A stretch of DNA of 64,000 bases, taken from Acidicapsa dinghuensis (lineage in GTDB: Bacteria > Acidobacteriota > Terriglobia > Terriglobales > Acidobacteriaceae). How positions within the stretch are numbered: position 1 is the stretch's first letter; every line of letters begins with the position of its first letter. Position numbers and translations under genes: made by a program. Below the pieces are notes generated by a model, which saw only the letters and a list, made by a program, of their open reading frames with translations, was not told the DNA's origin and searched no databases. The stretch spans positions 248,001-312,000 of the forward strand of contig NZ_JAGSYH010000006.1 in NCBI RefSeq assembly GCF_025685685.1. Reading direction: 5' to 3'. Below are positions 39,593-46,368 of this stretch, piece by piece.

Positions 39593-39715
39593 TGCTGGAG
39601 TCTACCATCCGGTCCTTATCTTCAAGCTCAGACCAGAAGCGTGAAACGTTACAGCAATTTGACAAACTATCCCTCAGTCAAGGCAAAATCCTTGGGTTCG
39701 TCAGGAGTATCTGTA

Positions 39716-40648
39716 GTGAACAAACAACCCTCCCCCATCCTTTTCTCAGCGATGTTCGTTTTCGCATCTGCTTTCACAGTCCACAACGCACGGGCTCAAA
39801 ACCTCACCCTGGAAGGTCAGACCGGCGGCTTCATCACGCCCACCGCCTATGTCGTCCAGTCCAATAAGGGACAAGTCTTCTCTCATCCCGCCGTCGGTTT
39901 CCACTACGTACACGCTGGCAGCGTCATCGGCGACATCATGACTGGCAGCGTCACCGAGGGCATCGCCAACCGTGTCGAGTTCGGTTACACCCGCAGCGCT
40001 CACACCAACGGAGATAACCCCTATTTCAGCAGCCTCTGGGAATACCCCGGCATGAACGTCTTCCACGGTAAAGCCGTCGTGCTCAAGGAAGACGCCTTCG
40101 GCAGTAACTGGACGCCCGGCGTCGCCGCTGGCTTCGTCGTCCGCACCGGAGACCACTTCGTTTCAGGCTCCATTGCAGACACCAGTTACACCAACGGCGA
40201 TATCTACGTTGCCGTCACCAAGACGGCTCTGAATATCCGTCCGCCACTGCTCGTCAACATCGGCTGGAAGGCGACCAACGCCTCCATTTACGGTATCGGC
40301 GGCCAGGCCACACGCTTCGGAGGCCGCTTCTTCGGCGGCGTCGGCATCCCGCTGCCCGGCCCATGGCATACCGCCATTGTTCCCGCCGCTGGATTCACGC
40401 AGGAGCCTTACCACGTCAAGAATCTCGCCGCAGTCGTTCCCGGCGGAGGAAACATCCCCACCACGCTGGACTACGCAGTCCGCATCACCCAGCGTGAGAA
40501 CCCGCGCTTCTCCTTCGATATTGGCGCGGGCCAGGTAGCAGGCCAGATCGGCTACACCGAATTGCCCACACCGGCGGGTCTTGCGATCGTGCCGGTCAAT
40601 CTAGAAGCCCGCGATGTCTTCGGCATTGGACTCAGCTACAAGTTCTAG
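39716..40648 (+). CDS. DUF3034-like outer-membrane protein
   Basis: The product has 310 residues from a GTG at 39716 with AGGAG eight bases upstream. Starts further up add an unlikely N-terminus. The signal peptide ends at NARAQ. The body is made of Gly- and aromatic-rich strands (GGFITPTAYVVQSNKGQV, GDIYVAVTKTALNIRPP, GGRFFGGVGIPLPGPW) and ends in a strand terminating in F (SYKF), as outer-membrane barrels do. It resembles the DUF3034 family of unknown role. The two ends are confident, the family only moderate. Confidence 0.75.
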   Translation: MNKQPSPILFSAMFVFASAFTVHNARAQNLTLEGQTGGFITPTAYVVQSNKGQVFSHPAVGFHYVHAGSVIGDIMTGSVTEGIANRVEFGYTRSAHTNGDNPYFSSLWEYPGMNVFHGKAVVLKEDAFGSNWTPGVAAGFVVRTGDHFVSGSIADTSYTNGDIYVAVTKTALNIRPPLLVNIGWKATNASIYGIGGQATRFGGRFFGGVGIPLPGPWHTAIVPAAGFTQEPYHVKNLAAVVPGGGNIPTTLDYAVRITQRENPRFSFDIGAGQVAGQIGYTELPTPAGLAIVPVNLEARDVFGIGLSYKF

Positions 40649-40972: not shown

Positions 40973-42448
40973 ATGTCAGCATCCGCTAGCAATACCGCTT
41001 CGTCCTCTCACACTATTGAAGACTATGATCTCGTCGTTCTCGGCTGCGGCGAAGGCACCAAATACCTGGCCTGGACGCTCGCGCGTCAGGGCAAACGCGT
41101 CGCTGTTATTGAGCGCAAGTGGATCGGCGGAGCCTGCCCCAACATGGCCTGTCTGCCGAGCAAGAACATCATCCACAGCGCCAAAGTCGCCTCATATTTC
41201 CGCCGTGGTAATGAATTCGGCATGCATCTGGAGGCAGAGGACGATGTAGTCGGCGCGGAATTGCGAGTCGACATGCGCACGGTTCAGGGTCGTAAACGCC
41301 GCATGGTCGAGGGACTGGTGCAGATGCACCTCGACAACTTCAGCTCGAGTGGAGCGGAACTCATCATGGGGACAGGCACCTTCATCGCCCCACGCACCAT
41401 TCGCGTCGATCTAAACGAGGGCGGAACGCGGATCTTGCGCGGCACAGATGTGGTGATCGGAACTGGCACGCGCGCATCGATTCCTGACGTAGAAGGTTTG
41501 GCAGCAGCGCGTCCACTCACGCACATCGAGGCTCTCGATCTCGACGAGCTTCCAGAACACCTCATCATTCTTGGCGCCGGATACATTGGTCTGGAACTGG
41601 CCCAAGCCATGCGGCGGCTTGGCAGTGAAGTCACCCTTATCGAACGATTCGCGCGGCTACTGCCTTCCGTTGATGAAGACGTCTCCGCCGGAATCGCAGA
41701 GCTTTTTTCGGAAGAAAAGATCGCCGTCCTGACCGACGCCTACCCACTCAGCGTAAGCGGAGAATCCGGCAAGTCGGTCACGGTCGAAGTCTGCGCATAT
41801 GAACGGGAGAAAGGCGTCGATCACATATTCAAGCTTGAAGGAACTCATATCCTGGTTGCTGCCGGACGCGCACCAAACACCAACGGTCTTGGCCTTGACT
41901 TAGCAGGCGTGGAACTATCCGGCGGCTATGTCCGCGTCAACGAGCGGCTTGAAACCACTGCGCCGCACACCTGGGCCATCGGCGATGTTGCTGGCAGTCC
42001 CAAGTTCACCCACATCAGCTTTGACGACTTTCGCATAGTCCGCGACAACATCGCTGGAGGCAATCGCGTCACGACTGGACGCCAGGTTCCATCGTGTCTC
42101 TTCACCGATCCCGAGCTTGCCTCCATCGGTCTAACCGAATCAGAAGCGAAGCGAAACGGTATTCCGTATCGTCTGGCAAAGATTCCGATGGCCGCCGATC
42201 TTCGTACCCGCACGCTCTCCGAAACGCGGGGCTTTCTCAAGGCGCTCGTCGAAGCTGACGGCGACCGCATTCTCGGCTTCACCGGCTTCGGTGTCGGTGC
42301 CGGAGAAATCATGGCAGCGGTACAAGTAGCCATGCTCGGCAATCTTCCATACACCGCCCTGCGCGACGCCATAATCACCCACCCCACGCTTTGCGAAGGC
42401 CTGGTCGCGCTCTTTTCCAAAGTTCCGCCCATCGGCAAAAATGGATAA
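40973..42448 (+). CDS. FAD-dependent pyridine nucleotide-disulfide oxidoreductase (mercuric reductase/lipoamide dehydrogenase-like)
   Basis: The product has 491 residues with a first FAD site (DYDLVVLGCGEGTKYLAW), a redox pair in GGACPNMACLPSKN, a second NAD(P) site (HLIILGAGYIGLELAQAM) and the C-terminal dimer domain ending in THPTLCEGLVAL with the catalytic histidine and glutamate. CPNMAC has four residues between the cysteines, as in lipoamide dehydrogenase and mercuric reductase. No MerA N-terminal metal domain is present. I chose the ATG at 40973 with TGGAG upstream. The protoglobin gene starts two bases after its stop, so this may be its reductase. Confidence 0.88.
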   Translation: MSASASNTASSSHTIEDYDLVVLGCGEGTKYLAWTLARQGKRVAVIERKWIGGACPNMACLPSKNIIHSAKVASYFRRGNEFGMHLEAEDDVVGAELRVDMRTVQGRKRRMVEGLVQMHLDNFSSSGAELIMGTGTFIAPRTIRVDLNEGGTRILRGTDVVIGTGTRASIPDVEGLAAARPLTHIEALDLDELPEHLIILGAGYIGLELAQAMRRLGSEVTLIERFARLLPSVDEDVSAGIAELFSEEKIAVLTDAYPLSVSGESGKSVTVEVCAYEREKGVDHIFKLEGTHILVAAGRAPNTNGLGLDLAGVELSGGYVRVNERLETTAPHTWAIGDVAGSPKFTHISFDDFRIVRDNIAGGNRVTTGRQVPSCLFTDPELASIGLTESEAKRNGIPYRLAKIPMAADLRTRTLSETRGFLKALVEADGDRILGFTGFGVGAGEIMAAVQVAMLGNLPYTALRDAIITHPTLCEGLVALFSKVPPIGKNG

Positions 42449-42450
42449 GC

Positions 42451-43062
42451 ATGGAGAACGGAGAGCACGACATTCACGGATATGACTACGGCAAAGCCGG
42501 CGTTCCGTCGTCGCCAGTAACACTTGAAGAGCTGCAACACTTCAAGATCAGCGCAGGCTTCACCGACGATACGGAGCGGTATCTGCGTATGGCGGGCGTA
42601 GTGCTCGCTCCGCAGGCTCCTGCCATCGTGCAGAAGTGGCGCAGCGGCATCATCGCCGGCATCCCACATCTTGCGCGCCACTCACGTGCAGTCAATGGCG
42701 ATCCACGGCCCGGTTATCTTGCGGCCACTAACCTCCGCTTCGTGCAGTGGATTGAAGACACCTGCCTCCGTACATACGATCAGTCGTGGCTCAATTACCA
42801 GCATGAGATAGCCCTTCGCCACACCAGCCTCAAAAAGAATCAGACCGACGGAGTCGAATCCACTCCATTCGTTCCGCTTCATGACGCTGTCGCCTTCGTC
42901 GCCGTCATGAACCAGACCATCCGTCCTTATCTGGCCACACAGGGGCACAGCGAGGCCGAAGTCGAAGCGATGCATGCAGCCTGGTGCGCCTCGCTGCAAC
43001 TGCAGGTGGCCCTCTGGCTGCGCAGCTACGCAACGCTAGCCAATCCCACCCCGGAGTTGTGA
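42451..43062 (+). CDS. Protoglobin
   Basis: The product has 203 residues. The single-domain protoglobin fold is recognised from LEELQHFKISAGFTDDTERY, LAPQAPAIVQKWRSGI and the proximal-histidine helix WLNYQHEIALRHTS. The next block is FVPLHDAVAFVAVMNQTIRPYL. There is no C-terminal signalling domain, unlike globin-coupled sensors. Protoglobins bind O2, CO and NO at heme through two tunnels and may detoxify or sense NO. It starts two bases after the reductase and 52 bases before a quinone-oxidoreductase-like gene. Confidence 0.9.
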   Translation: MENGEHDIHGYDYGKAGVPSSPVTLEELQHFKISAGFTDDTERYLRMAGVVLAPQAPAIVQKWRSGIIAGIPHLARHSRAVNGDPRPGYLAATNLRFVQWIEDTCLRTYDQSWLNYQHEIALRHTSLKKNQTDGVESTPFVPLHDAVAFVAVMNQTIRPYLATQGHSEAEVEAMHAAWCASLQLQVALWLRSYATLANPTPEL

Positions 43063-43114
43063 AGACCCGGAAGTAGTGAAGACACGCCGCATCCACCATC
43101 CAATGGAGCATCCG

Positions 43115-44098
43115 ATGCAAACACGAGCCTGGATCATCGAAGAGTCAAACGGTCCATTCCGAGAAACCGAAATAGCTCTCCCCACTCCCACAGCAGATCA
43201 GGTTCTGGTCCGCATCGAGGCCAGCGGTGTCAATCCGCTCGATACTAAGATCCGCGCAGGCAACGCCGGCCACGCACAGCAACCACTGCCCGCAGTTCTA
43301 GGTCTCGATATGGCGGGCACCGTCGTTGAAACAGGCTCCGCCGTTACTGCCTTCAAACCCGGCGATGAAGTCTTCGGCATGGTTGGCGGCGTCGGCGGTC
43401 ATCAGGGCACCCTTGCAGAGCACATCCTCGCCGACGCAGCTCTTCTCGCCCACAAACCCAGGTCGCTTTCCATGCGTGAAGCAGCCGCACTGCCATTAGT
43501 CACCATCACCGCGTGGGAAGGCCTCGTCGATCGCGCCAGGGTCGGCTCCGGCCAATCTGTTCTCATCCATGCTGGAGCAGGCGGGGTCGGCCATGTCGGC
43601 GTCCAGATCGCACGCGCATTCGGTGCAAAGGTCTTCGCTACCGTCTCTGCGAACAAGAAACATGTCGTGGAATCGTACGGCGCTACGCCGATCGATTACC
43701 GCGCGCTGACAGTCGAGCAGTATATCGCCGAACACACCGCAGGTGATGGCTTCGACATCGTCTACGACACCGTCGGCGGCTCAACGCTCGACGCATCATT
43801 CCTCGCCGTCAGGCGTTACACCGGCCATGCGCTCAGCTGCCTCGGCTGGGGAACTCATGCGCTCGCTCCACTCTCTTTTCGAGGCGCAACGTACTCCGGC
43901 GTCTTCACGCTTATGCCGCTATTGACTGGATTTGGCCGCGCTCATCACGGAGAGATACTCGCCAGATGCGCAAGCATGGCCGATGCTGGCAGGCTTCACC
44001 CCTTGCTCAATCAGCAGCGTTTCACCACTGCAGATATTGCTGCCGCACATGCCGCCGTGGAAGCAGGCTCGCTGGGAAAAGTTGTCGTAGAGATTTAG
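43115..44098 (+). CDS. NADP-dependent quinone oxidoreductase/zinc-type alcohol dehydrogenase-like protein
   Basis: The product has 327 residues and is an MDR-family enzyme. The N-terminus (TRAWIIEESNGPFRETEIAL) and the GroES-like block GVNPLDTKIRAGNAGHAQ lack the catalytic zinc ligands of alcohol dehydrogenase, as in quinone oxidoreductases. The Rossmann motif is HAGAGGVGHVGVQIARAFGA. I chose the ATG at 43115 with GGAG upstream; another ATG lies at 43103. It is likely the third gene of the reductase-protoglobin operon and ends four bases into the convergent LacI gene. Confidence 0.88.
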   Translation: MQTRAWIIEESNGPFRETEIALPTPTADQVLVRIEASGVNPLDTKIRAGNAGHAQQPLPAVLGLDMAGTVVETGSAVTAFKPGDEVFGMVGGVGGHQGTLAEHILADAALLAHKPRSLSMREAAALPLVTITAWEGLVDRARVGSGQSVLIHAGAGGVGHVGVQIARAFGAKVFATVSANKKHVVESYGATPIDYRALTVEQYIAEHTAGDGFDIVYDTVGGSTLDASFLAVRRYTGHALSCLGWGTHALAPLSFRGATYSGVFTLMPLLTGFGRAHHGEILARCASMADAGRLHPLLNQQRFTTADIAAAHAAVEAGSLGKVVVEI

Positions 44099-45195: not shown

Positions 45196-45336
45196 GGTAC
45201 TTGGTTTTATAGGCCTCGCCAATAAGAAGGATGAATAACCGTACTGTTATTGGCTTTGGTGACAGGATCAGGCCTGTAAACCACCCTTCCGGCGCGGATG
45301 ACTCCGCCCGGCGTCAACAGTCAAAGCTATCGGAGG

Positions 45337-46368
45337 ATGTACTTGGAGGAGATCCGCGGCAACGCGCTTGTATTGCTTCGCACAGTGCTGGTTTTCATTG
45401 CCGCAGCCGTGTTGCGCGCCCCGATATGGGCGCAAGCCGCTCCCGCGTCGCTGCCGCTGATTGGTGCGTCCAGCAACCTCGTACTAACGCCGGTACTGGT
45501 GCGATCGGCATCAGGAGATATGGTGTCTGGGCTGAGCGCAGGCGATTTTCGAGTTACTGACAACGGACAGCCACAAAAGATACAAGCCGACCATGTCGAT
45601 ATGGATCGCGTGGCATTGGTTGTCGTAATGCAGGTAGGCAGCCGCGTTCCCATGCAGCTTCAGAGCTATCAAACGCTGACTGGGCTTGTCAGTGCGATGT
45701 TTGGCTCCTCTATTCCTCATGTAGCTCTCGTGACCTTCGACAGCCATATAGAAGAAACCTGGAATTTCCCGGATCGTTTCGATGGTCTTAAATATGCTTT
45801 CCGAAATCCGGGAAGCGGCGATGCTGGTGCTGCCGTTATAGACGCACTCAACGGTGCTGCTGGCCTTTTGAAAGCGCAGCCGATAGGTTTGCGACGCGTC
45901 ATTCTTCTGCTAAGTCAACCACAGGATGAGCATAGCTTGATCACTCCTGCAGCTGTGGCGCGGCAGCTTGGTGAGAATAATATCACCGTCTACAGCATGG
46001 CATTTAAGCCGCGTACATCAAACAGGATTCACAAGCAGAAACGGCCAAAGAAAGAGAAGATGAGCCCGGCATCTGACGAAGCAACTTATGCCAAGGCTGA
46101 GTTCGATCGCATCGTATCGAGATTGCAGACAGACACCTCAGCGGAGTCTGCCGATCTTACCGGCGGAGAACACATCTGGCTCGATGATGCAGACCTACTG
46201 CAAAACGTGTTAGCGACACTGCGAACCGATTTTGCCAACACCTATCTGCTCAGCTTTTATCCGGACTCCAGCCAGCCGGGCTTCCACTCAATCCATGTGC
46301 AGCTAAAAAAGAAACTGTCCGAAAACACACTGGTAGCACGGCAGGCCTATTGGCGTGACAGCAATTGA
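45337..46368 (+). CDS. VWFA-related exported protein with degenerate MIDAS
   Basis: The product has 343 residues with a signal peptide (VLLRTVLVFIAAAVLRAPIWAQA). It fits the VWFA-related acidobacterial family: SGLSAGDFRVTDNGQPQKIQ, then a von Willebrand A-like domain (DRVALVVVMQVGSRVPMQL). The usual DxSxS metal site reads MQVGS, so the first Asp and Ser are missing. GENNITVYSMAFKP and TYLLSFYPDSSQPGFHSIHV are conserved later blocks. It probably mediates surface protein contacts, possibly without metal. Confidence 0.8.
   Translation: MYLEEIRGNALVLLRTVLVFIAAAVLRAPIWAQAAPASLPLIGASSNLVLTPVLVRSASGDMVSGLSAGDFRVTDNGQPQKIQADHVDMDRVALVVVMQVGSRVPMQLQSYQTLTGLVSAMFGSSIPHVALVTFDSHIEETWNFPDRFDGLKYAFRNPGSGDAGAAVIDALNGAAGLLKAQPIGLRRVILLLSQPQDEHSLITPAAVARQLGENNITVYSMAFKPRTSNRIHKQKRPKKEKMSPASDEATYAKAEFDRIVSRLQTDTSAESADLTGGEHIWLDDADLLQNVLATLRTDFANTYLLSFYPDSSQPGFHSIHVQLKKKLSENTLVARQAYWRDSN

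Follow-up and report, generated by a model that had tools for sequence, protein, structure and literature searches.

A gene for a disulfide-reductase-type flavoprotein recurs beside the gene for a distinct type of protoglobin well beyond the close relatives of Acidicapsa dinghuensis. The three-gene cluster that holds this pair in A. dinghuensis may be an rcl-like module for oxidant/electrophile stress in Acidobacteriota, with the protoglobin added as an accessory haem scavenger; we favour this reading tentatively, at a little short of an even chance. The window, that is, the whole 64,000-nucleotide stretch of DNA that was analysed, covers positions 248001-312000 of contig C14 in a 6.17 Mb Acidobacteriaceae genome. 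The original prediction described three consecutive genes on one strand, and the open reading frames, all on the + strand, are confirmed where it placed them. The globin ATG at 42451 indeed lies two bases past the reductase stop codon (42446-42448).

The reductase has two candidate start codons, ATG 40961 and ATG 40973, and the latter is favoured because a GGAG lies six bases upstream of it. The frame of the third gene spans 43076-44098 and is open from GTG 43076, but the N-termini of homologues suggest a start near ATG 43118. No sigma-70-like site was found at the cluster, and an Rfam search gave no match. Terminator-like sites number five against 2.3 in shuffled sequences, and all five lie within genes; one of them, where the reductase gene ends (42392-42409), counts against the rcl-like reading. 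The ORFs adjoining the cluster on either side, 39641-40648 (335 aa) and 45298-46368 (356 aa), have no Pfam match.

The first gene (40973..42448, + strand) encodes an FAD disulfide reductase of the RclA/MerA superfamily, as indicated by Pfam, NCBIfam, the nearest solved structure and trees. The protein has Pyr_redox_2 (E 6e-51) and Pyr_redox_dim (E 2e-24) domains, and like RclA-type enzymes it carries a CxxxxC pair (GGACPNMAC) and a C-terminal His-Glu (HPTLCE). Its best solved relative is 6kgy, whose sequence is identical to that of E. coli RclA, and its identity to RclA is 34%. A small tree places RclA and one paralogue from the window genome with the reductase family (99/99) and leaves Lpd, Gor and SthA outside, a grouping that carries a long-branch warning. 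Among the few E. coli flavoproteins tested, RclA is the nearest. Judged by NCBIfam, the reductase is not an RclA orthologue: it reaches 333 of the 740 bits of the equivalog cut-off of NF040477 (RclA), and its best model is PRK06370 (366.6 of 629 bits). RclA itself is described as reducing HOSCN and Cu(II) (PMC12096828, PMC7527725). Flavohaemoglobin and the Legionella GlbN-ferredoxin reductase pair resemble the cluster in that a globin adjoins or is fused to a flavoprotein, but their reductases are described as FNR-like (PMC3820574), whereas that of the window is a CxxxxC disulfide reductase, and the Pfam scan found no FNR-type domain in the three proteins of the cluster. The window reductase also has an extra cysteine in HPTLCEGL (42392-42394), beside the His-Glu, that is absent from the other ten family rows compared.

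The second gene (42451..43062, + strand) encodes a single-domain protoglobin of 203 aa. It matches PF11563 (Protoglobin) with 66.7 bits against a cut-off of 25, has no other Pfam domain, and aligns with the Methanosarcina acetivorans protoglobin across residues 7-194 (E 8e-45 to 2veb). A predicted structure (AlphaFold, pLDDT 78) supports the protoglobin fold, its best PDB matches being protoglobins (TM-score 0.81 to 3zji). In both the alignment to the M. acetivorans protein and that of the clade, His124, Trp63 and Phe97 align with His120, Trp60 and Phe93, and the proximal His F8, Trp B9 and Phe E11 are all retained. The two proteins (2veb and the 3zj- series for M. acetivorans) are also alike in their single domain and N-terminal extension, and differ in the distal pocket and in the redox gene cluster in which the window globin is set. 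The distal stretch of the window globin is Trp63-Arg64-Ser65, and Trp B9 is followed by R-S-G instead of Y-G, so that Tyr B10 is replaced by Arg and one residue is inserted. In the M. acetivorans protein, Tyr B10 and Trp B9 are described as hydrogen-bonding bound cyanide (PMC3680402).

The loss of Tyr B10 extends to the whole clade of related globins, which has W-R-[SAN] at 22 of 22 loci. The clade is defined by the motif W-R-[SAN]-x-I-I-A, which 22 distinct loci of those fetched share; 18 of these form one branch in the globin tree (97/94), and four more (L182-L185) were assigned by motif, not by the tree. The family sample contributed 14 of the loci, and the rest came from a named-genome scan and a class search. 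Since the patterns of the named-genome scan included the W-R-S-G-I-I-A stretch itself, the 22-locus set is uneven, and the family sample is even. Loci L019, L021 and L022 are the same as L047, L048 and L051 and were each counted once, and a 36-residue globin fragment in genome G520 was left out.

The third gene (43118..44098, + strand) encodes a quinone-oxidoreductase-like protein of the MDR superfamily with ADH_N and ADH_zinc_N_2 domains in Pfam, and homologues 67-71% identical to it occur next to the reductase gene at three other globin loci. It shares the superfamily with the PIG3-type quinone oxidoreductases (TIGR02824), but it scores below the curated cut-off of that model (171 against 296.8 bits). 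An MDR gene follows the reductase-globin pair at four of the 11 linked loci: the window, L043, L051 and L050, where a HAD gene precedes it.

The adjacency of reductase and globin, the starting point of the original prediction, is kept past close relatives, with a reductase relative within 2 kb at 11 of the 22 clade loci including the window, and at 10 of the 21 gathered without it. The linked reductases are about 56-66% identical to that of the window, and the loci span Acidobacteriaceae, a Bryobacterales MAG and Paraburkholderia; in a search of 299 genomes of the family of Paraburkholderia polaris (L018), the globin was found in P. polaris only. The order is reductase-globin at four loci (the window, L043, L045 and L018) and globin-reductase at seven (L016, L017, L050, L051, L052, L182 and L185). 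The reductase of L185 seems to be frameshifted, and only remnants of a reductase are present at L049. Judged by title and abstract, none of the literature matches listed for protoglobin with reductase, operon or neighbourhood reports this pairing. At three of the globin loci, the next gene after the reductase encodes a HAD-like protein whose N-terminus is Tat-like (L050:5468-6241, L016:8048-8839 and L185:4100-4939, the last identified by similarity and the others by Pfam).

Of the 300 genomes in the family sample, 13 have the clade globin, seven have only other protoglobin types, and 50 have the reductase (E up to 1e-120). With the window left out, 5/13 clade loci have the reductase within 1.5 kb against 0.03 expected (rough binomial p 2e-10, kinship ignored), which rules out chance adjacency; with the window the count is 6/14. 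The two genes also co-occur, the reductase being found in 11/12 genomes with a clade globin and in 38/287 others when the window genome is left out (p 9e-9), though both this test and that of adjacency ignore kinship and genome size. The pairing is not universal among protoglobins. The reductase is present in one of the seven genomes with other globin types only, and a search around those types, over 41 stretches from 32 places, turned up no reductase relative at E up to 1e-20; 13 of the places were covered for only about 1.5 kb per side, and others lie on short contigs. An initial search of the phylum matched 8/297 genomes, and none of the seven matches outside the window genome had a reductase within 1.5 kb, one of the seven being a fragment at a contig end. 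Within the clade, 11 of the 22 globin loci have no adjacent reductase, and 38 of the 50 sampled reductase genomes lack a clade-type globin, which weakens the case for a strictly dedicated donor-acceptor pair.

Neighbours of the rcl type are found at some related loci. The architecture of E. coli RclR (Cupin_6 plus HTH_18) is present in AraC proteins of L051, L112, L073, L075 and the window genome. RclR-like genes lie at two globin loci: at L051 the gene lies between globin and reductase, divergent from the latter, and at L185 a similar gene, identified by similarity, is divergent from the globin-reductase pair. In the window genome the gene is away from the window, on contig C13 (L181:8341-9915), where it is divergent from a DUF417 gene; this AraC protein is 54% identical to that of L051, and the DUF417 protein 22% identical to RclC. 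E. coli RclR is described as responding to HOCl via Cys21 and Cys89, and as not induced by NO or by electrophiles such as methylglyoxal and NEM (PMC7464077). Cys89 is aligned in these acidobacterial AraC proteins, and Cys21 is aligned in two alignments and shifted by three residues in a third; none of three control AraC proteins has equivalents of both.

DUF417, the family of RclC, occurs (E up to 0.001) in 32/50 reductase genomes against 14/250 others, 11 of these 14 matches exceeding the family cut-off. A DUF417 gene lies within 1.5 kb of 9 of the 67 reductase genes. None of the nine is a globin-linked copy, and the association falls mostly on globin-free branches, which weakens the rcl-like reading. 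The DUF417 locus nearest the globin-linked copies in the tree, L121, has 3.8 kb between its reductase and DUF417 genes, which are on opposite strands. An Acidisarcina plasmid carries a reductase relative in the array AraC-cupin-DUF302-reductase-DUF417, with a DUF417 protein 55% identical to RclC. A literature search tying DUF302 to chlorine stress found no tie, only one incidental paper. The Pfam scan shows no AraC, DUF417 or DUF302 gene next to the window operon, so the reductase there is not flanked by RclR and RclC counterparts. The likeness to the E. coli rclABC-rclR system of hypochlorite/hypothiocyanite resistance consists in RclA being the nearest flavoprotein tested and in an RclR-type AraC or DUF417 gene at some related loci. 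The differences are the modest identity to RclA, below the family cut-off, the presence of the globin and the MDR protein, and the location of AraC and DUF417 elsewhere in the genome. The neighbours across the clade are moreover mixed (SDR, DUF1348, ferritin, carbonic anhydrase), which also argues against an rcl-like module.

If the module is rcl-like, an RclR-like AraC activator would sense thiol-attacking oxidants through its cysteines, presumably of the hypohalous or hypothiocyanous type and perhaps quinones or enals, and the window operon may respond to such an activator encoded elsewhere in the genome. Using NAD(P)H, FAD and the Cys pair, the flavoprotein would reduce either the oxidant itself or the thiol products of its attack, and the MDR protein would reduce quinones or unsaturated carbonyls, any electron transfer being putative. 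The globin would bind haem via His124 and, with Trp-Arg in place of Trp-Tyr in the distal pocket, might decompose or capture a small reactive oxidant. It probably acts in the ferric state and so would not strictly depend on the reductase. A role without a steady reductant is chemically reasonable, since ferric M. acetivorans protoglobin is described as isomerising peroxynitrite (PMC4020757). By analogy, the protoglobin clade could itself be a haem enzyme of a new kind that acts on reactive chlorine or peroxide species, with the distal Trp-Arg activating the oxidant under RclR-type control and an RclA-like reductase coupled to it, but this is very doubtful. Peroxidases have a catalytic distal Arg. 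Chlorite dismutases are also described as having one (PMC7931450).

Other readings of the cluster give the reductase and the MDR protein different roles. In reactive-carbonyl or quinone detoxification with no special halogen-oxidant role, flavoprotein and MDR protein would reduce quinones and enals, and the globin would be an O2 or radical buffer. This would fit the MDR gene being beside the reductase both with the globin and without it (L112, L114 and L149), the SDR genes near some clade globins, and the old-yellow-enzyme and dienelactone hydrolase genes near another protoglobin type. The reductase family's links to DUF417 and to RclR-type AraC genes instead suggest RCS/HOSCN-type stress, and we consider the detoxification reading unlikely. 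The original prediction had proposed a reactive-carbonyl system or an NO dioxygenase, and its carbonyl half stays plausible for the MDR protein. The other half would be a split NO dioxygenase, in which the flavoprotein uses NAD(P)H to reduce the ferric globin again, the oxy-globin converts NO to nitrate and the MDR protein clears by-products. The recurrence of the adjacency in both gene orders is consistent with it, some other globin NO dioxygenases are described as having fused or operon-linked flavin reductases (PMC3820574), and a protoglobin of the W-Y-G type lies near Hmp and an Rrf2 regulator on a Hymenobacter plasmid. However, the reductase is of the disulfide type and groups with RclA, most of the sampled reductase genomes lack this type of globin, and one globin genome (G570) has a best reductase match of at most 32% identity. 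In addition, Tyr B10, which is described as hydrogen-bonding haem ligands in M. acetivorans protoglobin (PMC3680402), is replaced by Arg, and NO is described as not triggering E. coli RclR (PMC7464077). An NO-dioxygenase mechanism is therefore not supported for the cluster, nor is the dedicated haem reductase that was proposed for it, and we regard the split enzyme as quite improbable.

It is also conceivable that globin and reductase both belong to variable stress islands and often end up side by side with no reaction in common. At L018, in Paraburkholderia polaris, the globin copy is flanked by transposase genes (DDE_3 and IS110). At the Edaphobacter locus L017 the globin lies beside a reductase from another branch, and in genomes G155 and G233 the corresponding region, 85-91% identical at the nucleotide level, has the reductase but no globin. 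On the reductase tree, which has 54 rows after removal of the duplicates L136 and L138 and does not include some reductase matches, the globin-linked label needs seven changes, at least five of them with good branch support (gains not being told from losses), and it is no more clustered than in shuffles (as clustered in 45 of 500). On the globin tree the linked label needs five changes and is as low in 5 of 500 shuffles. Against such hitch-hiking, the linkage is seen with either gene first and on two reductase branches far from each other, and the match ends are 6-72 bases apart at five of the six adjacent loci of the family sample. We therefore consider it distinctly unlikely, and prefer the rcl-like reading.

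What M. acetivorans protoglobin does biologically has been called unknown (PMC3680402), and a recurring gene partner suggests specific inducers and substrates to test, along with a partner enzyme, and so gives a testable hint to the function of bacterial protoglobins. RclR, RclB and RclC have been described as mainly limited to Enterobacteriaceae (PMC7527725). If the rcl-like reading is true, rcl-type oxidant defence extends to Acidobacteriota; if the globin is a haem enzyme for chlorine or peroxide species, a bacterial protoglobin gains a physiological role.

The other acidobacterial protoglobins are of the W-Y-G type, or have W-R without the insertion. A plasmid search with the globin gave seven records at 37-45% identity, and all three fetched are of the W-Y-G type. 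The Hymenobacter plasmid (L077:1-10549) has its W-Y-G protoglobin near Hmp, the Rrf2 regulator, a catalase and a hexameric tyrosine-coordinated haem protein, which is an NO/peroxide-type setting. A divergent HxlR-family regulator gene (PF01638, G-C-K-W motif) lies directly upstream of the globin in three of 21 W-Y-G places (L011:7227-7616, L014:7701-8015 and L189:7126-7470), and none was found in the other 18. A further protoglobin type, with KWRSVIAA, is present at L186, L187 and L188. At L187:3473-7896, the only one of these scanned for both, it is accompanied by genes for a dienelactone hydrolase and an old-yellow-enzyme-type protein.
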